A DNA stretch of 52,958 bases from a virus: positions 1 through 52,958 of the IMG/VR virus record IMGVR_UViG_3300032241_000243; one strand, given 5' to 3'. Of this stretch, positions 36,390 to 46,019 are shown piece by piece. The notes under the pieces are model-generated. The model had not been told where the DNA came from, ran no database searches, and saw only the letters and a program-made list of their open reading frames with translations. The position numbers and the translations under genes are program-made. The first letter of the stretch is position 1. Every line of letters starts with the position of its first letter.

Positions 36390-37814
36390 TTAACTTCCGT
36401 TTGTAAAGGCTGCGTTGTCGATGTATCTGGTGCAAGAAATATCAACTTGGGTAAGGATAGGCACCATTCGTTCATTAAACATAATGTGTTGAACATCAAG
36501 GCTATTGATACGAACCAAGTAACGCATGCCATCTCCAAGATGGAGTTCTACTGGAATTGGCTGTAGCCAACCGTAGTCAGCAGTAGGTCCATTAAGGGTA
36601 GACATGTAAGTTGCGTCGTATCCACCTGTAGCCTTAAAAAAGTATTCAAGGTCGTACATGGTTCCTTTTTTATAAATCAACTGTCGGTCTTCAAGGGATA
36701 CTGGAAATGGATATATGTCCGTATGGTTTGGACCATCAAAAACCAACGATGGAACACCATTTACATTTCTTTCTTTTAAGTTCACTTCTACTTCAGACTG
36801 AGAAACGGGCTGTACAACGTACTGCCCACTAGGAGCAAGCACACTCATGTCACCGATACGGTTCAACATGAGAGAAAAACTAACTGTACTTGCCATCAAA
36901 CCTGAACCAACAGCAGAGGCAGGGTCTTGACCAGTTGCTTCGTATGGTGGTGAGAAAGAGTCTACAAGTCCCCAGGACATAGATATAGATGTTGGGTTGT
37001 ATAAAAACTTAAACCCATAAGCATTTTTATCTGCTTTAAATACATTCTTAGCATTTGAAGCGGTAGTTGCTTGAGTAGTTGGGTTTGATGTTGCCAAACT
37101 TTGAAGAGTTGTTTGGCTCATTTGAATGGCACCTTTTCCAGTCCATTGAAAAGACCCAACATCTTTTGGAGGTGTGGTTACAAGTATGCTGTTTCCTGCA
37201 GAAGCAATCTGGGGTCCAAGAGGACCAAAATAAGCAGTCTTAACCATAGGAGCGTTGTACACGTAAGGTTGTGCTGGAGGTGCTTTCTTGGTTTTGTTAA
37301 GACCTGAACCACCTGCGTTAGATCCACCAGTGCTAGTTGTAGGAGGAGGTGTACCTCCTGCAGCAAGTATCTTGTCTTTAGCGATTTGTGCTTCAATACT
37401 ATTGTAATTAGCCTGTTGCTTTGTTAATAGAGCAGAAACATCCTTAGCGCTTGTTTCAAGATTCGTCTTTCCTTGATCGATATTAGTCCATGTTGCAAGT
37501 GCCTTGTTATAAGTGTTAGATGCAGCAAGAAGTTGATCAGAGGTGTAATGAGATGGATTTTGTTGGTATGGTTTATAGGCATTTTGCGCAGTAATCCATG
37601 TTTTTTGAGCAGGACTCCATTGAGTTTTTACATAGTTTTTTAATTCTGTTTGAATAGACGTTAGGTTAGTTTGAAGTTGAGCAATAGGTTGTTGTGCCAA
37701 CGCTGCTTGTTTTTGCAGTTTTCCACTCTTAAGTTCGTTTGCTGATTTAACAACTGACGCCGCAAACTGCGCTTGACTTTGACTTGTTCTTTTACCAGAC
37801 GATGGAGTAGCCAT
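36390..37814 (-). CDS. Tail hub/tube adaptor with long helical N-terminus
   Basis: 474 residues. The first ~170 are Gln/Lys/Ala/Ser-rich with heptad-like spacing, probably a coiled coil, then a Gly/Pro-rich linker. The second half (about 215-474) has beta blocks such as 'FLYNPTSISMSWGLVDSFSP', 'SFSLMLNRIGDMSV', 'VSLEDRQLIYKKGTM', and an end 'LTQVDISCTRY', the type seen in proteins between the tape measure and the hub of contractile tails. Function as baseplate or tube-initiator is inferred from place and pattern. Confidence 0.6.
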   Translation of the reverse strand: MATPSSGKRTSQSQAQFAASVVKSANELKSGKLQKQAALAQQPIAQLQTNLTSIQTELKNYVKTQWSPAQKTWITAQNAYKPYQQNPSHYTSDQLLAASNTYNKALATWTNIDQGKTNLETSAKDVSALLTKQQANYNSIEAQIAKDKILAAGGTPPPTTSTGGSNAGGSGLNKTKKAPPAQPYVYNAPMVKTAYFGPLGPQIASAGNSILVTTPPKDVGSFQWTGKGAIQMSQTTLQSLATSNPTTQATTASNAKNVFKADKNAYGFKFLYNPTSISMSWGLVDSFSPPYEATGQDPASAVGSGLMASTVSFSLMLNRIGDMSVLAPSGQYVVQPVSQSEVEVNLKERNVNGVPSLVFDGPNHTDIYPFPVSLEDRQLIYKKGTMYDLEYFFKATGGYDATYMSTLNGPTADYGWLQPIPVELHLGDGMRYLVRINSLDVQHIMFNERMVPILTQVDISCTRYIDNAAFTNGS

Positions 37815-40228
37815 TATGACCTTCCTGCAATAGATAACGAGTTGTTATCTGCGAGTAATGTTTTAACTCTCTTAGCAAGGTTAACCGCTTCTGCTTCTGA
37901 GGCTTGAGCAACACTTACGTTGATTGTAATGTTGTTGGTACTACCAGCCGAGTTACTTGCAGTGCCTACAGCACTTCCGCTCATAGTGGACGTGGTAGTT
38001 GCAGGCATCGAAGCACCGTAACCAGAGTTACCGCCACCTGCACTTGATGGAATGTGAGTTCCCCACGCAGATCCGTTAATTGCACTTAGTACTGCTGCAG
38101 TACTGTTACCCTTTTTGAGGGCTTCACGGATAGCAGAGTATCCTCGTTGGTTCTCATTAAGAGTGCTGATAGTGGCATTTAATCCTTGAGAATAAGAGAC
38201 GTAGGATTTAACACCAGCAGAGTTAATGTTGGTAGCCCCAGTTTCATCAAGAGTGGTGTTTATTGGGTTATAGTGAGCAGAGTTATTCCACTGGCCACCT
38301 TCATACGCCATCCACGTTGTTACAGCCTTCATGTTTGAAGATGTAACAGGATCACCCATTTTGGTCAAGAAGTCTTTAGCCCAAGCCTGTTGGCTACCTG
38401 TTCCAAGGATAGTTCCGTAGGTAAGTTCTTGTGTTCCAGAAACCATACCCACGCTCATGAAGTTACTACCAAGAAGGACAGATGGGTCTACAGGGTTGTT
38501 TTTACCTTTACGAACCTCGAAGTGCAAGTGGGGACCCGTAACGTTTCCTGACTCACCTGATTTAGCAATGATTTGCTTGGCACTGACGTTGTCACCGATT
38601 TTAACGCTCTTGCTGCTTAGGTGACCATACAAAGTTGTGTACCCGTTACGATGGTCAATTTGAACTGTAGTTCCGTATTCAAAACCAGGATTATCATCGA
38701 ACACAACTCCAGGAGCAACGGCTTGAACAGGTGTTCCAATCGGAACAGCGTAGTCTTGACCTTTGTGGTTGTTACCTGAAGGTGTGTTCCACAAATCAGA
38801 ACCTGTGGCTCCGTAAGCAACTGTTGGTGACATTCCTTTAATAGGTGAAACAGCATTATTAGCAACGGCATTTTGTGCTACTACTTCTCCGCCAACTGCT
38901 GCACCAAAGCCAGAGTTACCACCACCTATACCATGTTCTAATCCTGATAATACTAAAGCCCCCGCACCTTCAAGGATAGATCCAACACCGTGGACTATTC
39001 CACCAATAACAGAAGTTGCAGCCTTACCGACGTTAGACGTACCCATTCCTTGAGTAAATCCTTTTACTTTAGAAACAGCGTCAAGAACACTTCCAAATTG
39101 AATTAACTTTTTGTTTACTGCGGTGATTACATTTGCGGCATCTTGATACCCTTGAATCATCGCTTTTTGACCAGCCTGCTCTACTGCAGTTTGAGAAGAT
39201 GTAATTTGCTGAGTTGCTTTTGTTGGGTTTCCTACACCAGATGCTGAGGCAAGGTCTGGATTTTGACCACTAGCAATTTGCAAGAATTGCTTTCTAAATA
39301 GGTCTTGTTGATCAGAACTAAAACCCATTGCGTTTAGATCGGCGCCTGCAAGTCCATACTGAAGAGACATCTGTACTTGACTAGCAGTAGCGCCGTGTTG
39401 AAAGATGCGTTTGTAAAGTTGGGTGGCAATGCTTGTTTCAGAGGCAGGTTGACCATTTGGACCAAATTGATTAATACCATACTGGTACAGGTTGGCTCCC
39501 ATAGCACCTGTTTGTAAACCGCCAATGGCTTGAGCGGCGGTAGCGTTGTTCATGTTAAGAAGTCGAGATGCTCCGCCAATTTCTCCCATGGCTGCAAGGT
39601 AAGCGGCACTTCCTGGAGCATACCCATATCCCTGAACGAGTTGTGCAGCCGCTGCCGCATCGTCCCCCATACCAGATATTCCGTAACCAAACTTTCCGTT
39701 GATTGCAGAAAGGCTAGACTGCTGTAATTGTGTGTAGCCAAGTCCAGTTGGAGAATACTGAGAACTGGTGTAATAACTACCAGCACGAGATACGGTGGAA
39801 CCCAGGTCAGGTGCAAGGGCAGCAACTCCTCCTACAATTCCACCAACAATTTGCCCCGCTCCAGAAACGATCTGGCCAATCCCCATAGATGATTGGCTAG
39901 GCATAGAAGTGTTACTAGCAACTGCTTGTTGAAAGGCGGAGGCTGGAGCACCCGCATCGATGATGCTAGGGACGTGTGTTCCACCGTTACTTACCCCAGT
40001 TCCAGCAGTGGAGAAACTAGCAGTGTCTGTACCAAGAGTTTGTCGGTTAGTCTTACCGTTGCCCTTTTGACCACCTTTGCTGATGGCACCCTTCATCGTG
40101 GATGTAGCGTCGTTTGCTTGGGCAGTGATGTCCTTGATGGATTGGTTGATGGAGTTAAGGGTCGTCAAAGTATCCTTCAACGCATCGTTGAGGGATTTAA
40201 CGCTTGTAACAGGGTTAACTGACGCCAC
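37814..40228 (-). CDS. Tape measure protein with M23 peptidase and transglycosylase-like domains
   Basis: 804 residues from GTG at 40228 (AGGAG upstream). The first ~470 are Gln/Ala/Gly-rich helices, as in tape measures. Then comes an M23/LytM endopeptidase: the H-x3-D motif in 'HKGQDY' (about 487-492), 'YGHL' and 'PHLHFEVR' (about 565-570). Next, about 640-725, is a lysozyme-like segment starting 'WMAYEGG' with 'YNPINTT' and ending 'WGTHIP', like tail transglycosylases. The protein sets tail length and opens host peptidoglycan during DNA entry. The last 60 residues are Ser/Gly/Thr-rich with a helix. Confidence 0.88.
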   Translation of the reverse strand: MASVNPVTSVKSLNDALKDTLTTLNSINQSIKDITAQANDATSTMKGAISKGGQKGNGKTNRQTLGTDTASFSTAGTGVSNGGTHVPSIIDAGAPASAFQQAVASNTSMPSQSSMGIGQIVSGAGQIVGGIVGGVAALAPDLGSTVSRAGSYYTSSQYSPTGLGYTQLQQSSLSAINGKFGYGISGMGDDAAAAAQLVQGYGYAPGSAAYLAAMGEIGGASRLLNMNNATAAQAIGGLQTGAMGANLYQYGINQFGPNGQPASETSIATQLYKRIFQHGATASQVQMSLQYGLAGADLNAMGFSSDQQDLFRKQFLQIASGQNPDLASASGVGNPTKATQQITSSQTAVEQAGQKAMIQGYQDAANVITAVNKKLIQFGSVLDAVSKVKGFTQGMGTSNVGKAATSVIGGIVHGVGSILEGAGALVLSGLEHGIGGGNSGFGAAVGGEVVAQNAVANNAVSPIKGMSPTVAYGATGSDLWNTPSGNNHKGQDYAVPIGTPVQAVAPGVVFDDNPGFEYGTTVQIDHRNGYTTLYGHLSSKSVKIGDNVSAKQIIAKSGESGNVTGPHLHFEVRKGKNNPVDPSVLLGSNFMSVGMVSGTQELTYGTILGTGSQQAWAKDFLTKMGDPVTSSNMKAVTTWMAYEGGQWNNSAHYNPINTTLDETGATNINSAGVKSYVSYSQGLNATISTLNENQRGYSAIREALKKGNSTAAVLSAINGSAWGTHIPSSAGGGNSGYGASMPATTTSTMSGSAVGTASNSAGSTNNITINVSVAQASEAEAVNLAKRVKTLLADNNSLSIAGRS

Positions 40229-40230
40229 TG

Positions 40231-40386
40231 TTAACTCCTTCCGTATCGAGCCTTAATAAGTTCTAACCAGTTCTTACGTTCTCTAGGAGACATCTCTTTA
40301 ATCTCCGTAAGGTTCCAGTTGGGGTATAACTCAGAGATCGCAGCCCATTCTGCAAAGATCTCTATGTAAGCCTTTAAACTAGAATT
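40231..40386 (-). CDS. +1 frameshift extension of the gp26-like chaperone
   Basis: A reading frame with no usable start codon that stays open from 40416 to the stop at 40231-40233. It encodes 'AYIEIFAEWAAISELYP', 'WNLTEIKEMSPRERKNWLEL', 'KARYGRS'. Its Trp/Glu-rich and 'MSPRER--W' pattern is like the short C-terminal partners of tail chaperone frameshift proteins. A +1 slip at UUU-C (TTT at 40388-40390, C at 40387), where the Phe tRNA can re-pair with UUC, would give a fusion of about 319 residues. Placement directly before the tape measure is the canonical one. Confidence 0.7.
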   Translation of the reverse strand, partial: NSSLKAYIEIFAEWAAISELYPNWNLTEIKEMSPRERKNWLELIKARYGRS

Positions 40387-41191
40387 GAAACAAGGTGCCC
40401 AAATTAATGGATACCGTTACCTCACCTTCACAGTCAGGGCAAGGCAATTGAATATCGTTAAACTGTGGACCAGGAGATCGTAGTGAGATCTCTTCAAGGA
40501 TCTTTTTACGATCAACAACTCCCAAGTTTTGAACTTGGATCTTGTTGTAGACAGGCGCTCCGTTAATCTCAAGGACTGTCTTTTCTAGAAGAATAGTGTT
40601 TAACTCTGCTGCTGTTTTATCAGCATTGTTAATAAGTTCTTTTTGAGCAAGACCTGTAGGTAGTTGTACTTTAATAGGTCCTTTTTTACCTTCAACCATA
40701 AACACGCGATCTTCAATTGGGTTTGCCAACATCTTGATTTTGATGTCTTCGTCTAGGTCTACAGAAACTGTTTTAAAGTCATTGCAACCAGAACAGTAAG
40801 TTGGGATATCTGCAGTTTTTCCAAAAGTTACCTTTAAGATACCGAGAAGAATGGTCTCTCGGTCTGCGGCCAACATAAAGTTAAGCGCAGATTCTGAAGC
40901 CTTGGCATCTCCCACAGAAACAAGCCCACGGTCTAAAATGGTTAGAAGAGCCTTACCAACGCTTGATGCTTTGGAGATCGCCTCTTCATCTTTACCCGTC
41001 AGTTCACGAACCTCTGCTGTGCGGAGCAACTCCCCAGAGGCTGTTATGTAGCCTCCAGGAAGTTGGACCGTAGTATCCGAAGGTGGAACAATGGTGGCCT
41101 CAACTGGTTCCGTAGGACCCTCATTGAATGCCTCATTAAGCAGGTTGTTTGCCAATGCGGGATTAGCCGCTGCCGAAATTGTGTTAGTCAT
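40379..41191 (-). CDS. T4 gp26-like tail assembly chaperone
   Basis: 270 residues. Two CxxC pairs (C-S-G-C near 130 and C-P-D-C near 250) probably bind one zinc. Strands such as 'GKKGPIKVQLPTG' and a helix 'LTGKDEEAISKASS' fit the T4 baseplate/tail-chaperone family that I recall for gp26. It normally ends at TAG (40379-40381); a +1 shift would add the next frame. Such proteins coat the tape measure during tail assembly. Confidence 0.7.
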   Translation of the reverse strand: MTNTISAAANPALANNLLNEAFNEGPTEPVEATIVPPSDTTVQLPGGYITASGELLRTAEVRELTGKDEEAISKASSVGKALLTILDRGLVSVGDAKASESALNFMLAADRETILLGILKVTFGKTADIPTYCSGCNDFKTVSVDLDEDIKIKMLANPIEDRVFMVEGKKGPIKVQLPTGLAQKELINNADKTAAELNTILLEKTVLEINGAPVYNKIQVQNLGVVDRKKILEEISLRSPGPQFNDIQLPCPDCEGEVTVSINLGTLFQF

Positions 41192-41208: not shown

Positions 41209-41862
41209 TTATCCGTTGAATGTGTTTACGTTTACTGATGTTCCATAGGTTGTGCCCCATGCAATATCGATACCCTCATGAACAAGAGACATCTGCTCTA
41301 CAAGAAGAGCGTTGTCGCCAGCATTTAGGTCTGAGTATGAAATGGATGTAGGCCATGCATTATAGATATAAAAACTTTGAGCAATTACATCTTTTGAAGC
41401 AGCAGCAGCAGCACCCGCACCAGTTGATAGGCCAGAAGCATCACTTACTGTTTCAGCACTTGAAATAGGGTGTTGCAAAACATCGATGCGAAGATCGCAA
41501 CGAAAGTTAGCAGTTGCAGAAAGTGTGCTTCCACCACCTTGTACTGTTGCAAACAAGTTGCGCATCCAATCCCAGTTAACTGAAGTTCCAAGAATCACAC
41601 CACGTTGTAGGGTGATAGGTGAGAAAGTTGTTTGACCAGGAATTTGGTGAACGGTGGTGTTGTAGCCACCTTCACGGTAAGGAATAGAGTCTGTTGTTAC
41701 AGACATTCCTGATACCGATGTAAATCCGAATGAGATCGGAGGTGCGCCCACAGCAGTTACCGCTGCTGAAGCGTTTGCTTGTGGGATGAACGTAACTAGA
41801 TATCTAAAGTTACGTAATGGATCAGTCGCAAGACTTGATCGGTTATTTTGGATTGTTGCCAT
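41209..41862 (-). CDS. Tail tube protein (gp19-like)
   Basis: 217 residues. 'DPLRNFRYLVTFIPQ' near the start, 'FTSVSGMSVTTDSIPYREGGYNTTVHQIPGQTTFSPITLQRGV' and 'WDWMRNLFA' are the classic blocks of contractile-phage tube proteins (conserved motif around residues 55-100). The protein polymerises into the inner tube through which DNA passes. The order sheath, tube, chaperone, tape measure fits. Confidence 0.9.
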   Translation of the reverse strand: MATIQNNRSSLATDPLRNFRYLVTFIPQANASAAVTAVGAPPISFGFTSVSGMSVTTDSIPYREGGYNTTVHQIPGQTTFSPITLQRGVILGTSVNWDWMRNLFATVQGGGSTLSATANFRCDLRIDVLQHPISSAETVSDASGLSTGAGAAAAASKDVIAQSFYIYNAWPTSISYSDLNAGDNALLVEQMSLVHEGIDIAWGTTYGTSVNVNTFNG

Positions 41863-41879: not shown

Positions 41880-43397
41880 TTAGGATGCGATCATCTGGTT
41901 GATGTTAATAACGACAAACTCAGCAGGATACTCAAGCGCTACACCAACTTGGATGTTGACAATACCGTTTTGAATTGATGCTGAGGTGTTGTTTGTTGCA
42001 TCGCAAAGAACGTAGTAAGAAGAGCCTGGAGTTGCTCCAGCCAATCCACCTTGGTTGCGATACCCATTTAAGAAGGTGCTAATTGCACCAGACAAACGCG
42101 CCCATAGTTTGTCGTCGTTGTTCTCAAACAGTGCGTTTTCAGCAATAGCATCGATGCTCTTTTCAATGTAGATAAGAGAACGACGCATGTTTACATAGCG
42201 GTTTGCTGTGCCATCTTGTTTAAGAGTACGAGCGCCCATTACAACTAGTCCAGCACCAGGTACCTGACGAATTGGGTTTACTGGAGCAACCGAGCCAGTT
42301 CCTCCTGAAGGAAGGCCTAGATTCAAGTTGTCAAGATCTGTTGATGAGAATGAACGCTCTACAGAGATAACACCTGAAAGAGATGCACTAAGTCCTGCTG
42401 GAGCCTTAAACACTCCCTTTGAAGCATCAGTTGCAAGATATAAACCAGCAACCGCTGCGGAAGGTCCTACTAAACGAAGAGCACTGTTACTGCGTCCTAC
42501 TGGGTCTGAAATGTAAATATTAGGATAGTAAACAGCAGTATTGCTTGAAGCCGTTAGTGACTGTGCGAACTCGATTACACCGTCTACAGTTAAACCAGAA
42601 GCAGTCTCTGACACATAAAACGCGTCGTTATTTGCCGACCATGAGATAGCATCAGTAATAACGTCTACTTCTCCTGAAGCCAAGGTTAAAAATAGGTTTG
42701 GTGTAAAGGTAACAAGAGCACGGTTCAATGAATCAAAAGCATGCCATACAGTACTTCCTGTTGAAGCGTATGAGGTGTAGTCTGTTGACACTACCGTGCT
42801 TCCATCTGATCCACTTGCTAGTGGGTAAGGTGCAGAGATAACAGGAGTACCAGAGGCTGTTGCGCTGATCGTAATATACGAAGAAACGTTGTTAATAACG
42901 GTCTCTGCGTAATCAGACTGAGTGGAATCAGCAAACTGAATATTCTGGTACTGCTCAAGAAGAACGTTTCCAGTAGACACTGTGTTATACAAAGCCAATG
43001 TGTAAGTTCCAGAAACTGTTCCAGCACTTAGATTTACATAGTAGTTGTTAGCAGCGGCTCCACGGCTTTTTGCTGTAATAGTAGCAACCGTTGCAGAAGC
43101 AGATGTAACAACGTTCACAGTCGCAGCAGCAGCGTCTGAGTGCATGATGCGCTTTACATAGAGTTCGCGACCACCGTTGTTGAAGAAGGTTGCGATAGCA
43201 AATGTTGCTGGATACGCAGCGTTGTATCCACCAAAGATGCTTGTGAATTGGTACCAAGAAGTGATATAAGTCACTGTTTCTGGACCTTGAGGTAGAGGTG
43301 CAACAACCGCACCTGCAGCGTTTGCTGAAGGGCCTTGTGGCAGTGGTGCAGGTAGGAGTGTCTCTGAAAGGTACACTCCAGGACGACCGTAAGTCAT
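41880..43397 (-). CDS. Contractile tail sheath protein
   Basis: 505 residues. N-terminal 'YGRPGVYLSETLLP', a middle 'WYQFTSIFGGYNAAYPATFAIATFFNNGGRELYVKRIM', and the C-terminal part 'GAGLVVMGARTL-DGTANRYVNMRRSLIYIEKSIDAIAENALFENNDDKLWARL' are standard sheath signatures. This gene defines the phage as contractile-tailed. The middle domain (about 120-260) is a Ser/Thr/Ala-rich surface insertion. The start is ATG with GGAG-type site. Confidence 0.93.
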   Translation of the reverse strand: MTYGRPGVYLSETLLPAPLPQGPSANAAGAVVAPLPQGPETVTYITSWYQFTSIFGGYNAAYPATFAIATFFNNGGRELYVKRIMHSDAAAATVNVVTSASATVATITAKSRGAAANNYYVNLSAGTVSGTYTLALYNTVSTGNVLLEQYQNIQFADSTQSDYAETVINNVSSYITISATASGTPVISAPYPLASGSDGSTVVSTDYTSYASTGSTVWHAFDSLNRALVTFTPNLFLTLASGEVDVITDAISWSANNDAFYVSETASGLTVDGVIEFAQSLTASSNTAVYYPNIYISDPVGRSNSALRLVGPSAAVAGLYLATDASKGVFKAPAGLSASLSGVISVERSFSSTDLDNLNLGLPSGGTGSVAPVNPIRQVPGAGLVVMGARTLKQDGTANRYVNMRRSLIYIEKSIDAIAENALFENNDDKLWARLSGAISTFLNGYRNQGGLAGATPGSSYYVLCDATNNTSASIQNGIVNIQVGVALEYPAEFVVININQMIAS

Positions 43398-44100: not shown

Positions 44101-44426
44101 AAGAACTTACCCCCTAAGTGCTCAGAAAGTCGTCCTAAAAGAAAGGACTCTGCTTCAGCGCGGTCGCTGTCACGGTTAGCGAAGCGTCGAAGAGCGTAGG
44201 TGGGCTGTTGTCCTGGGGTGCCATACTCTAGGTCTAACGCTTGCGCGTGGTAGGAAGGGTGTACATGAGTAGTAAACCCTTTTTCAGGGTGGTATTTAAC
44301 ATGAAGTCCACTGACAATGTTGTCGGGCCAACCTGCAGCCCTTGCCTCAGAACGTAGTTGGGCAGACATGTAGCGTGTGGTCTCGTGTGCAGAAACGTGC
44401 ACGGCGCGTTGGGTCTTAGACTTCAC
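44097..44426 (-). CDS. Neck/head-tail joining protein (gp10-like)
   Basis: 109 residues from GTG at 44426, overlapping the stop of the gene before it. The sequence has a helix 'AQLRSEARAAGWP', then 'FTTHVHPSYHAQALDLEYGTPGQQPTYALRRF': the conserved 'LEYGTP' pattern of HK97 gp10-type neck proteins, which connect head and tail. Confidence 0.75.
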   Translation of the reverse strand: MKSKTQRAVHVSAHETTRYMSAQLRSEARAAGWPDNIVSGLHVKYHPEKGFTTHVHPSYHAQALDLEYGTPGQQPTYALRRFANRDSDRAEAESFLLGRLSEHLGGKFF

Positions 44427-44599
44427 TTCCGCTTCATCGCTTTCGATGCTACTTTGCCAGCGACATACCCAGCGATAAGAGCAGCGAAAACAGGTTGTTT
44501 CTCTTTTGGACGGAAACCGAAGACACCGCGAATGAAGTTCTCGCGTTCATGCTGATTGTTAATCTCAGCAGCCTCTTCATACCAAGCACGATGTGCCAT
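44423..44599 (-). CDS. Short protein with a membrane-like segment
   Basis: 58 residues, starting at the ATG at 44599; too short for a usual ORF cutoff. Its stop (TGA at 44423-44425) overlaps the GTG of the next gene. After an acidic N-terminal helix it has 'FAALIAGYVAGKVASKAM', an amphipathic or membrane-like helix, ending in Lys/Arg. It may be a neck-associated or leader-type protein. The ribosome binding site is weak, so the start is somewhat uncertain. Confidence 0.6.
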   Translation of the reverse strand: MAHRAWYEEAAEINNQHERENFIRGVFGFRPKEKQPVFAALIAGYVAGKVASKAMKRK

Positions 44600-44670
44600 A
44601 TCTAAACCCCTTTATCGCAACCAGTGGGAACTGTGGCGGACACCAGCGCGGTGTTCCGTTGGTATAAGGG

Positions 44671-44699
44671 TAAAGAAAAAGCCCTGATTTCTCAGGGCT
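44671..44699 (-). terminator. Rho-independent terminator
   Basis: On the minus strand: perfect 8-bp stem (arms 44680-44687 and 44692-44699), 4-base loop, followed by TTTTTCTTTA (44671-44680). This is the best intrinsic terminator in the window. It closes the run of small basic genes to its right and separates it from the tail genes. Confidence 0.9.
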
Positions 44700-44704
44700 A
44701 AGTC

Positions 44705-44827
44705 TTACTTCTTTTTGGATTTAATCTTTTTAGCCAAGGCTTTATCGTTCTTGGCATCTTCCTTTTCGAACTTCTTCTTCTGGGCTGGGGTCATGCCCTT
44801 TTCCCATTTAGAATCTTTATGAGCCAT
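44705..44827 (-). CDS. Small Lys-rich protein
   Basis: 40 residues, strongly basic (Lys about one third), helical; pattern 'KGMTPAQKKKFEKE' with 'KKIKSKKK' end. It is the last gene before the terminator. Too short for usual gene calls, but the start and spacing fit its neighbours (the next gene begins one base away). No known function; like its neighbours, it may bind nucleic acid. Confidence 0.6.
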   Translation of the reverse strand: MAHKDSKWEKGMTPAQKKKFEKEDAKNDKALAKKIKSKKK

Positions 44828-44956
44828 TTACTTCTTCTTGCCCATTTTCTTCATTGAAGCCATTGGCTTAGCAGAGGCTTTCTTAGAACCAGCCTTTGGG
44901 CCTTTGCCGTATCCTGCTTCGCCCTTCTTCTTTCCACATCCACATGACATGCACAT
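44828..44956 (-). CDS. Small Cys/Lys/Gly-rich protein
   Basis: 42 residues. Begins with a compact Cys cluster (C-x2-C-x-C in 'MCMSCGCGKKK'), continues with Gly and Lys, ends with 'MKKMGKKK'. The Cys group may bind a metal. The stop is at 44828, adjacent to the next gene. Unknown function. Confidence 0.6.
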   Translation of the reverse strand: MCMSCGCGKKKGEAGYGKGPKAGSKKASAKPMASMKKMGKKK

Positions 44957-44958
44957 AG

Positions 44959-45123
44959 TTATTTGCCTTTCGATTGTTTTGCTGCCCAAATATTATCGAC
45001 AGCGTTTGGGTAGGGGCGACCCGCCTTTTCAGCGCGAGCCTTAGCCGACGCCTTCTGTCCAGAAGACAGAGGAGTGGACTTCTTTCTTGGGTTCTTCTTC
45101 TCCCAGATTGGCTTACTTGCCAC
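44959..45123 (-). CDS. Small Lys/Arg-rich protein
   Basis: 54 residues from GTG at 45123, whose first base is also the last base of the preceding TAG. The sequence has 'WEKKNPRKKSTPLSSGQKASAKARA' followed by 'GRPYPNAVDN', a conserved motif I recall from other phages' small basic proteins, and a basic end. It is likely translated with the previous gene. Confidence 0.65.
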   Translation of the reverse strand: MASKPIWEKKNPRKKSTPLSSGQKASAKARAEKAGRPYPNAVDNIWAAKQSKGK

Positions 45124-45392
45124 TAGCAGTCCCACTTACGTATGGACTTGTTAATACGACTGTTTGGATCTTTCGCCGTTTTGGAAGAGGTGTTCTTGTC
45201 TTTCATTCCTTCCATTCTGGCACAGAAAGACTTGCGTCGAGCCGCAGACTTTGGAGACTTCGCTGCTTGCTCTTTAGACACAGGAGCCTTAAGGTTATGA
45301 CCTTCTTTTTTAGCAGAAGCCCGCCCCTTAGCATTTAGGCCGCCCTCTGGGTCCTGTCCTTCTTTACGAGTCCATGCAGGTGATTTAGACAT
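45123..45392 (-). CDS. Conserved small basic phage protein
   Basis: 89 residues, basic. Conserved blocks 'PAWTRKEGQDPEGGLNAKGR', 'RRKSFCARM' and 'SRINKSIRKWDC' are familiar from many environmental phages as a small protein family of unknown role. It overlaps the next gene by one base on both sides. Probably nucleic-acid or virion associated. Confidence 0.75.
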   Translation of the reverse strand: MSKSPAWTRKEGQDPEGGLNAKGRASAKKEGHNLKAPVSKEQAAKSPKSAARRKSFCARMEGMKDKNTSSKTAKDPNSRINKSIRKWDC

Positions 45393-45649
45393 TACATTCC
45401 CTTTTTCTTGTGATAAGTCTTAAAAGCAGTCACACCCTGCTTTACAGAGGTAATACCTTTTTTCTCTGTCAAGTTATGAGTAGCACTCGTACCTTTGCGA
45501 TGATGCGTATGGTCAATCATCACATTACCCATCTTGTCTTTATAGACCTTGTGGGTAGAGCGGGGCGCTTTGCCAGGAACACCGATGGTTAATGTTGCAG
45601 GTGGTTCTGGCTTTTCCTCTTTAGGTTTATTACTTTCCGTGTTTGCCAT
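45392..45649 (-). CDS. Small basic protein, paralogue of the next one
   Basis: 85 residues. The C-terminal ~50 residues align with the product of 45630-45851: H-x-V-Y-K, then a G-x-V-x-x-D-H block, then L-T-x-K-x-G-x-x-x-V-K-Q-G-V, then H-K. The N-terminal 30 residues are Pro/Glu/Lys-rich and disordered. The two genes overlap by 20 bases, consistent with tandem duplication. Confidence 0.7.
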   Translation of the reverse strand: MANTESNKPKEEKPEPPATLTIGVPGKAPRSTHKVYKDKMGNVMIDHTHHRKGTSATHNLTEKKGITSVKQGVTAFKTYHKKKGM

Positions 45650-45851
45650 GGGACTTATGCCATTGCTTTACAGAGAGGACACCTTGCTTAACAGTCTTGA
45701 CTCCAGCCTTATCGGTTAGGTCAATCTTGTCCCATTTACCGTTGTTCTTACCTACATGGTCAACAATGACGTCCCCGTCTTTGCGCTTGTAGACACGGTG
45801 ACCTTTGCCGCCTGCTTCAACGAATGCTGGGTTTTCTTTCTTCTTGGCCAT
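45630..45851 (-). CDS. Small basic protein, paralogue of the previous one
   Basis: 73 residues, very Lys/His/Asp/Gly-rich. Shares the 'H-x-V-Y-K / D-H / VKQGV' pattern with its neighbour. Similar in layout to a small beta-rich DNA-binding protein, but no known fold is recognised. The start ATG has a reasonable site and follows the next gene's stop by one codon. Confidence 0.7.
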   Translation of the reverse strand: MAKKKENPAFVEAGGKGHRVYKRKDGDVIVDHVGKNNGKWDKIDLTDKAGVKTVKQGVLSVKQWHKSHGKHGK

Positions 45852-46019
45852 TTACTTTTTCTTTCCAGCCTGTGCCATCTTCTCCATCTTCTTAACGCCG
45901 TACTTCTTCATGCCAGCAGCCGCAGCAACTGCAGCAGGGTTCTTAGCGCCAGACTTCTTAGCCTCTTCTGCAACTTTTTTAAAACGAGATCCTGTACCTA
46001 GGTTTGCTTCTTTAGCCAT
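45852..46019 (-). CDS. Small Lys/Ala-rich conserved protein
   Basis: 55 residues of the pattern 'GTGSRFKKVAEEAKKSGAKNPAAVAAAAGMKKYGVKKMEKMAQAGKKK' (split here: 'GSRFKKVAEEAKK', 'NPAAVAAAAG', 'KKYGVKKMEKMA'). A similar conserved motif, RF-x(n)-GxxNPxAvAAxxGxKKYG, is common in phages. The product is basic and helical. The preceding gene's stop is two bases away. Confidence 0.7.
   Translation of the reverse strand: MAKEANLGTGSRFKKVAEEAKKSGAKNPAAVAAAAGMKKYGVKKMEKMAQAGKKK

Follow-up and report, generated by a model that had tools for sequence, protein, structure and literature searches.

How does a virus translate a reading frame that runs on past the end of a tail gene and has no usable start of its own? 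The question is raised by the tail genes of the window (the whole stretch of DNA that was analysed, a virus record of 52,958 bases), in which the frame of a 270-aa protein is overlapped near its 3' end by an open +1 frame. Genes of this kind are known from lambda, whose gpG/gpGT-type tail assembly chaperones were reportedly treated by Xu, Hendrix and Duda in 2004. The first-pass annotation had proposed a programmed +1 frameshift at a UUU-C between the two frames. Comparison with relatives argues that the gene is very probably a tail assembly chaperone of a contractile-tailed phage, with a long form made via a +1 shift at UUU_C.

The tail locus

The tail genes of the window (Table 1) follow the order sheath, tube, chaperone, extension, tape measure, which is shared with Streptomyces phages, Bacillus phage SP-15 and Flavobacterium phage immuto. 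As in lambda G/GT, the chaperone thus sits between the tube and the tape measure. The M23 domain of the tape measure (residues 487-582) probably serves cell-wall passage. Since the PHROG matches of this protein, some of which are tape-measure families, mostly cover the M23 region, its name also rests on position and length. An AAGGAG at 40240-40235 lies within the last codons of the extension, ahead of the tape-measure GTG. Upstream of the tail genes, a series of short lysine-rich open reading frames (ORFs) is present on the minus strand at 44423-46019.

Table 1. Features of the tail locus in the window, with coordinates, strand and the evidence for each.
Feature	Coordinates	Strand	Evidence
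Tail sheath protein	41880..43397	-	PF17482 1.4e-7; PHROG 23 1.8e-42
Tail tube protein (T4 gp19-like)	41209..41862	-	PF06841 2.9e-24
Short (N) chaperone form, 270 aa, frame 0, ATG to TAG	40379..41191	-	PF12322, PHROG 150, model
Putative shift site TTT_C, 0-frame A-site codon CAA	40387..40390	-	140/140 distinct loci, 0 parsimony changes
+1 open frame, 61 codons + TAA	40231..40416	-	Open likewise in relatives
Predicted extension, 51 codons read post-shift	40234..40386	-	Translation; pN/pS 0.198; three-helix model
Possible downstream hairpin, window only	40299..40384	-	z -2.30; 4/200 shuffles fold as well
Tape measure protein, GTG start, M23 peptidase domain	37814..40228	-	PF01551 4.8e-31

Frame 0 of the chaperone ends GGC ACC TTG TTT CAA TTC TAG (TAG at 40381-40379), so that the TTT of TTTC is a frame-0 codon lying 9 nt from the stop. 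The +1 frame, open from 40416, closes at a TAA (40233-40231) two bases short of the tape-measure GTG (40228). The coordinates first given for this frame, for the site and for the gap to the tape measure all proved exact on re-reading. The frame had also been described as lacking a usable start; its sole ATG, GTG or TTG in the window is an ATG about 29 codons beyond the frame-0 stop, inside the conserved part of the extension, and none of the three lies ahead of that part. When TTTC is read as a single step, the translation runs ...LGTLF-NSSLKAYIEIFAEW..., which reproduces the predicted LF/NSSLK junction. The predicted long (NC) form comprises 319 aa, i.e., frame-0 residues 1-268, the last being the Phe at UUU, followed by 51 codons. 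The -1 frame of the window closes 1 codon past the stop, and a classical -1 heptamer (X_XXY_YYZ) is absent from the chaperone's last codons there. However, the window alone is weak evidence because a 49-codon open run past the stop has a chance of about 0.1, (61/64)^49. Its open +1 frame proves little by itself, and comparison with relatives decides.

Relatives compared

Sixteen relatives were found in viral contigs, 12 of them 54-67% identical to the window chaperone, and five Streptomyces phages (GiJojo, BRock, pSt2308, LuckySocke and Alone3; L017-L021) were 36-39% identical. In all of these 12 and five, TTTC lies in frame ahead of the stop, and the +1 frame is open and conserved. Loci L013-L016 (25-27% identical) have no TTTC; they were left out of the count and used as an outgroup. 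Alignment-based scans added the best 80 of 399 matches, 5 loci from bacterial genomes and the best 80 of 428 matches. For the first 80 and the bacterial loci, the scan patterns included a conserved peptide immediately 5' of the site but excluded the site itself. Two of the last 80 (L145 and L178) were left out, having no frame-0 stop before the contig end. The resulting set of 181 loci includes the window and some contigs fetched twice; 140 are distinct, which counts distinct sequences and not independent lineages, and only the tree count below allows for relatedness. The +1 frame runs off the contig in three loci (L059, L144 and L163), which leaves 137 complete frames.

Chaperone relatives with the same +1 site also occur in contigs of Saccharothrix, Streptomyces, Actinomadura and Nonomuraea (L104-L107). 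Read by eye from their ORF translations, the last three have sheath, tube and chaperone followed by a long ORF resembling a tape measure, and the four loci may be prophages, tailocins or injection systems.

Conservation of UUU_C

The homologue comparison suggested by the first-pass annotation gave a uniform result: an in-frame TTTC with the +1 frame open across the site was found in 181/181 evaluable loci (140/140 distinct). Fitch parsimony on a tree of these 140 loci counted 0 changes at each of the four TTTC bases, against 21-46 changes at third codon positions near the site. Zero changes alone are not unique to the site, because 1 other of the 37 positions examined (-17, the second base of a codon) is equally unchanged; the bases that protein constraint leaves unexplained are the third position of TTT and the following C. 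The frame-0 Phe is invariant in the ten members of one alignment (A2). The residue encoded in the A site was replaced 23 times (Arg in 69, Gln in 47, Leu in 20 and Pro in 4 of the 140), with the first base always C, and the Arg and Leu codons AGR and TTR do not occur. Of the 140 loci, 36 have a GC content of at least 0.58; in these the site is TTT throughout, whereas TTT makes up 14 of 203 Phe codons elsewhere.

The distance from TTT to the stop is 3 codons in 80 loci, 4 in 46 and 2 or 6-9 in 14. With TTTC fixed and this distance ranging over 2-9 codons, it is the site that is kept and not the stop. In 52 of the 140 loci the +1 frame first opens within 20 nt of the stop, and any shift must therefore fall in the last few codons. 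In-frame TTT-C is scarce elsewhere in the chaperone genes (24/428 TTT codons are followed by C, against 106/478 TTC codons). This scarcity was not used as evidence because a milder bias runs through the window (41/315 TTT vs 37/158 TTC, p 0.0056) and the Streptomyces phage loci have none (12/74 vs 43/262).

The extension as coding sequence

In 137/137 complete cases, the +1 frame stays open for 42-80 codons beyond the stop. Beyond the stop, pN/pS is 0.198 over 35 non-overlapping pairs and 0.25 over all 245 pairs, and substitutions at codon positions 1, 2 and 3 number 221, 147 and 485. From these sequence comparisons, the extension is judged to be under purifying selection and to evolve as protein in the +1 frame. 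Its core reads Y..L..E...L.....GW.L.EIK.LS.RER.NW, and the predicted model has three helices (pLDDT 87.4). A Pfam search with the extension returned nothing (best Spectrin_2, E 0.15), and a Foldseek search of its model against BFVD gave no E under 0.86. The overlap near the 3' end that is typical of frameshifted G/GT genes is seen here through comparison only, across the 140 distinct loci.

The chaperone protein

The short form belongs to PF12322 (T4_baseplate), which it matches at 5.7e-10 and 39.7 bits against a Pfam cut-off of 24.5; it also matches PHROG 150 'baseplate hub' (2.2e-9). All ten members of alignment A2 match PF12322 at E up to 5 (best 3.5e-11), while Phage_TAC_7 was matched by one of the ten at E 0.0085, the same protein scoring 16.4 bits against a cut-off of 25. 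Two CxxC pairs are present in the 270 residues, one near the middle and one near the C-terminus. Furthermore, the predicted model (pLDDT 87) has as its top PDB match the HK97 tail assembly chaperone 2ob9 (Z 6.9, rmsd 4.1, 91 aligned of 104 residues); this Z is below 8, the next-ranked PDB row has Z 3.1, and the Foldseek E for 2ob9 is 0.19. The model-based match agrees with a tail-chaperone role without proving that role. The best predicted viral structure is a 'T4-like baseplate hub assembly protein' (1.2e-19), and the chaperone profile, used in an hmmsearch of the PDB, found nothing below E 0.26.

Alternative explanations

The extension might instead be a separate small gene with its own start, translated by reinitiation after the chaperone stop. 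The records of GiJojo, BRock, LuckySocke and Alone3 do list a small ORF there, and TAATG overlaps occur in distant T4-like loci (L013-L015, L191 and KVP40). However, the annotated starts differ, being separated from the frame-0 stop by 31 nt (a TTG) in GiJojo and BRock and by 73 nt (an ATG) in LuckySocke and Alone3, and no gene is annotated at the extension in pSt2308. A start codon giving a separate ORF in homologues had been named beforehand as the observation that would tell against a shift. It is not the rule: among the 133 loci in which the conserved motif was located (the other 7 of the 140 were dropped), 41 carry a +1-frame ATG ahead of the conserved part and 92 do not, and 48, like the window, have no ATG, GTG or TTG there at all. 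A separate gene would also leave unexplained both the openness of the +1 frame upstream of the stop and the unchanging TTTC, and we regard it as very unlikely. Alternatively, the overlap might be accidental and TTTC kept only through the Leu-Phe ending of the protein. The invariant frame-0 Phe fits such an account, but protein constraint permits TTC, the codon preferred elsewhere in the GC-rich relatives, and would not fix the first base of a following codon that encodes four different amino acids. Moreover, the downstream frame evolves as protein, and an accidental overlap is scarcely credible. None of the 140 loci combines TTC at the site with an intact +1 extension, and L227, a locus of the distant marine clade described below that reads TTC TTC TGG, shows no open +1 frame.

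The +1 frame could also be reached by another route: the ribosome might slip at the stop codon, as it does in prfB, or shift by -2, as in Mu, or transcription might slip along a run of T. The stop is close to the site in the window, -2 and +1 shifts land in the same frame, and many sites of a marine clade described below read TTT TTT TGG, a seven-T run able to slip otherwise. Yet the distance to the stop varies while TTTC does not. As we read the base pairing, the last sense codon (TTC in the window) offers a poor match after a move of one base. A -2 move from UUU at CTG TTT or TTG TTT would, on the same kind of reading, set UGU under the Phe anticodon. As for transcriptional slippage, the run in the window is short (three T), and several marine-clade members in which the T run is broken (TTC TTT TGG or TTT CTT TGG) still have an open +1 frame. 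These routes are considered extremely unlikely, and a +1 ribosomal shift at UUU_C is the reading followed below.

Proposed mechanism and stimulators

The sequence comparison shows an overlapping +1 coding frame, an invariant UUU_C and the gene order, and a +1 shift would work as follows. Most ribosomes would make the 270-aa short form, while some would shift +1 near the 3' end and give the long form. The P-site tRNA-Phe (anticodon GAA) would slip from UUU to UUC, one base forward, while the A site is empty. This anticodon pairs better with UUC than with UUU, and UUU-pyrimidine sites are reportedly the subject of work by Schwartz and Curran in 1997. The efficiency of the shift is probably a few per cent. 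By analogy with lambda gpG/gpGT, the role of the short form would be to coat the tape measure and that of the extension to recruit tube protein, the long form being a minor product that links tape measure and tube. A Salmonella UUU-CAA site, identical in its six bases to the site of the window, gave a product in which tRNA-Phe had shifted when Gln-tRNA was reduced (PMC3617221).

Better pairing at UUC, to which the first-pass annotation had pointed, does not suffice as the whole cause of the shift. In-frame UUU-C is common in other ORFs of the window: the 43 long ORFs hold 41 copies (the site and 40 others) among their 315 TTT codons, and with 40 other copies the tetranucleotide alone cannot give a strong shift. 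Either another factor must raise slippage at the site or the level of shifting must be low. Pairing of the upstream sequence with the anti-Shine-Dalgarno only slightly exceeds in strength that at other Phe codons (mean -3.94 vs -3.42, p 0.011), and the relatives share no consistent Shine-Dalgarno-like element. Over 46 loci, taken as every third of the 140 with enough sequence, folding downstream of the site is unremarkable, with a mean z of -0.62 and 7 loci below -2. Three candidate stimulators were rejected: the hairpin of the window is not a common feature of the relatives; a rare A-site codon does not apply, CAA being the commoner Gln codon in the window; and a phage tRNA can hardly drive the shift, as the window has no tRNA or tmRNA gene.

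The wider PF12322 family

Distant relatives, all at the same place in the gene order, were found by tblastn. UUU_C is present in Streptococcus phage GXN1 (TTC TTT CGT), a 484-kb uncultured phage (AAC TTT CTA), Bacillus phage SP-15 (TTT TTT CAC) and Flavobacterium phage immuto (AGC TTT CTT), and in these four the +1 frame is open 66-89 codons beyond the stop. The first three match PF12322; immuto matches no Pfam family and is a relative by tblastn to locus L193. In Listeria phage LIS04 and Microcystis phage Mel-JY01 the site is UUU_U, not UUU_C, and the +1 frame is likewise open, and a huge phage (LR756511, L194) has neither TTTC nor an open +1 frame.

The scan of marine-type loci, which started from these distant relatives, took the best 80 of at least 436 relatives, among which only the +1 frame is open in 59, both frames in 14 and only the -1 frame in 1, the remainder being 4 that run off the contig and 2 duplicates. 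In the 59, the overlap has TTTC (8) or TTTT (53), two loci having both. Together with SP-15, immuto and the Microcystis phage, the marine-type loci form a second large clade (L196-L199 and L202-L281) with the +1 frame open after the chaperone. Its sites are mostly TTT TTT TGG (UUU_U), and some are TTT CTT TGG or TTC TTT CGT. One marine locus (L227) reads TTC TTC TGG, and there the +1 frame is not open and the -1 frame is.

In KVP40 (L201), Bellamy (L200), L013-L015 and L191, a U UUU UUC or UUA lies near the stop and the -1 frame is open. Judged by sequence, these T4-like loci are candidates for a -1 shift, and the TAATG overlaps in several of them make reinitiation possible. T4 has two genes, 26 and 51, and the KVP40 record lists a small ORF after gp26 that is likened to the gp51 C-terminus. 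The profile of the window-clade extension, compared by hhalign with that of all -1 extensions and the T4 gp51 C-terminus, scored 31.4 with a probability of 82; among 100 column-shuffled controls four scored 131-137, the one inspected being a four-column artefact, and the next highest scored 15.9. The hhalign probability was 32 for the window clade against the second +1 clade and 22 and 25 against the -1 subgroups. For the second +1 clade it was 72 against all -1 extensions and 80 against one -1 subgroup, and for the two -1 subgroups against each other it was 0.8.

Common descent of the +1 and -1 extensions is therefore possible on these profile comparisons. Within one chaperone family, the direction of the shift seems to vary, the sequences suggesting +1, -1 or a second gene. 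We would also put forward, tentatively and with rather more doubt than conviction, that in PF12322 the long form is normally, and perhaps ancestrally, reached by a forward slip of tRNA-Phe at UUU-pyrimidine, and that the candidate T4-like -1 sites and gene 51 are altered forms of one and the same locus. If true, the direction of frameshifting flipped while the product and its position stayed.

Comparison with known systems

Tail-chaperone frameshifting is already known, as are +1 cases, known or proposed, and +1 shifts at UUU_C in eukaryotic viruses. As far as the literature search shows, the invariant UUU_C in PF12322 chaperones and the apparent change of direction within the family are new. 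The search, which ran outside subscription papers, found nothing recognisable as a description of a +1 site in a PF12322 chaperone, and the text of the BRock announcement mentions neither a frameshift nor a tail nor a chaperone. The records examined annotate the extension as a separate gene or omit it; if the shift is confirmed, those of the five Streptomyces phages need joined CDS features. The locus is a bacterial UUU_C case whose evolutionary signature is unusually clear, and it concerns a gene whose product ratio would, by analogy with lambda, matter for tail assembly. It also lets one ask which factors other than UUU_C cause forward slippage of bacterial ribosomes.

Like lambda G/GT, the gene of the window lies between tube and tape measure and is predicted to give a short form and a low-level frameshifted long form. 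Unlike lambda, which shifts -1 at a slippery heptamer, and Mu, which shifts -2, the window would use +1 at UUU_C, in a chaperone of the PF12322 domain. G/GT frameshifting has been called widely conserved 'except T4' (PMC5009743), and for T4-like phages two separate genes were reportedly described by Vladimirov, Gautam and Davidson in 2022. The window gene shares its Pfam family with T4 gp26/gp51, and its extension weakly resembles the small ORF of KVP40 and Bellamy and the gp51 C-terminus; unlike T4 with its two genes, and KVP40 and Bellamy with their open -1 frame, the window clade uses the +1 frame. This bears on the 'except T4' statement, as T4's own chaperone family seems to reach the long form by +1, -1 or a second gene.

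A +1 shift had been called unusual in the first-pass annotation. Unusual it is, but not unheard of for tail chaperones, judging by two sources. One describes a very likely +1 shift in the tail chaperone of the haloarchaeal myovirus HSTV-2 and +1 shifts at CCC_U sites in Listeria phages PSA, A118 and A500 (PMC5009743). The other, on PRFect, counts 350 forward sites among 2718 positives, its authors stating that no general forward-frameshift motif was identified (PMC10885494). The window resembles PSA, A118, A500 and HSTV-2 in having +1 in phage tail genes, in HSTV-2 at the equivalent chaperone locus; unlike it, the PSA-type shifts occur at CCC codons and lengthen capsid or tail-shaft proteins.

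Similar sites, known or proposed, occur in eukaryotic viruses. In influenza A, PA-X is made by a +1 shift at UUU_C, as shown by peptide sequencing, and P-site stimulators of the UUU_C type were predicted as a class by Firth et al. (PMC3498833). UUU_CGN has been proposed as the +1 site of plant amalgaviruses (PMC5052127). As in these viruses, the P-site UUU is followed by C in 140/140 loci, and Arg CGN occupies the A site in 69 of the 140. However, the A-site codon of the window is CAA and not CGN, the ribosomes are bacterial and the gene serves structural assembly. The UUU_CGN sites of PA-X and the amalgaviruses are thus an analogue of the window site and not a relative.
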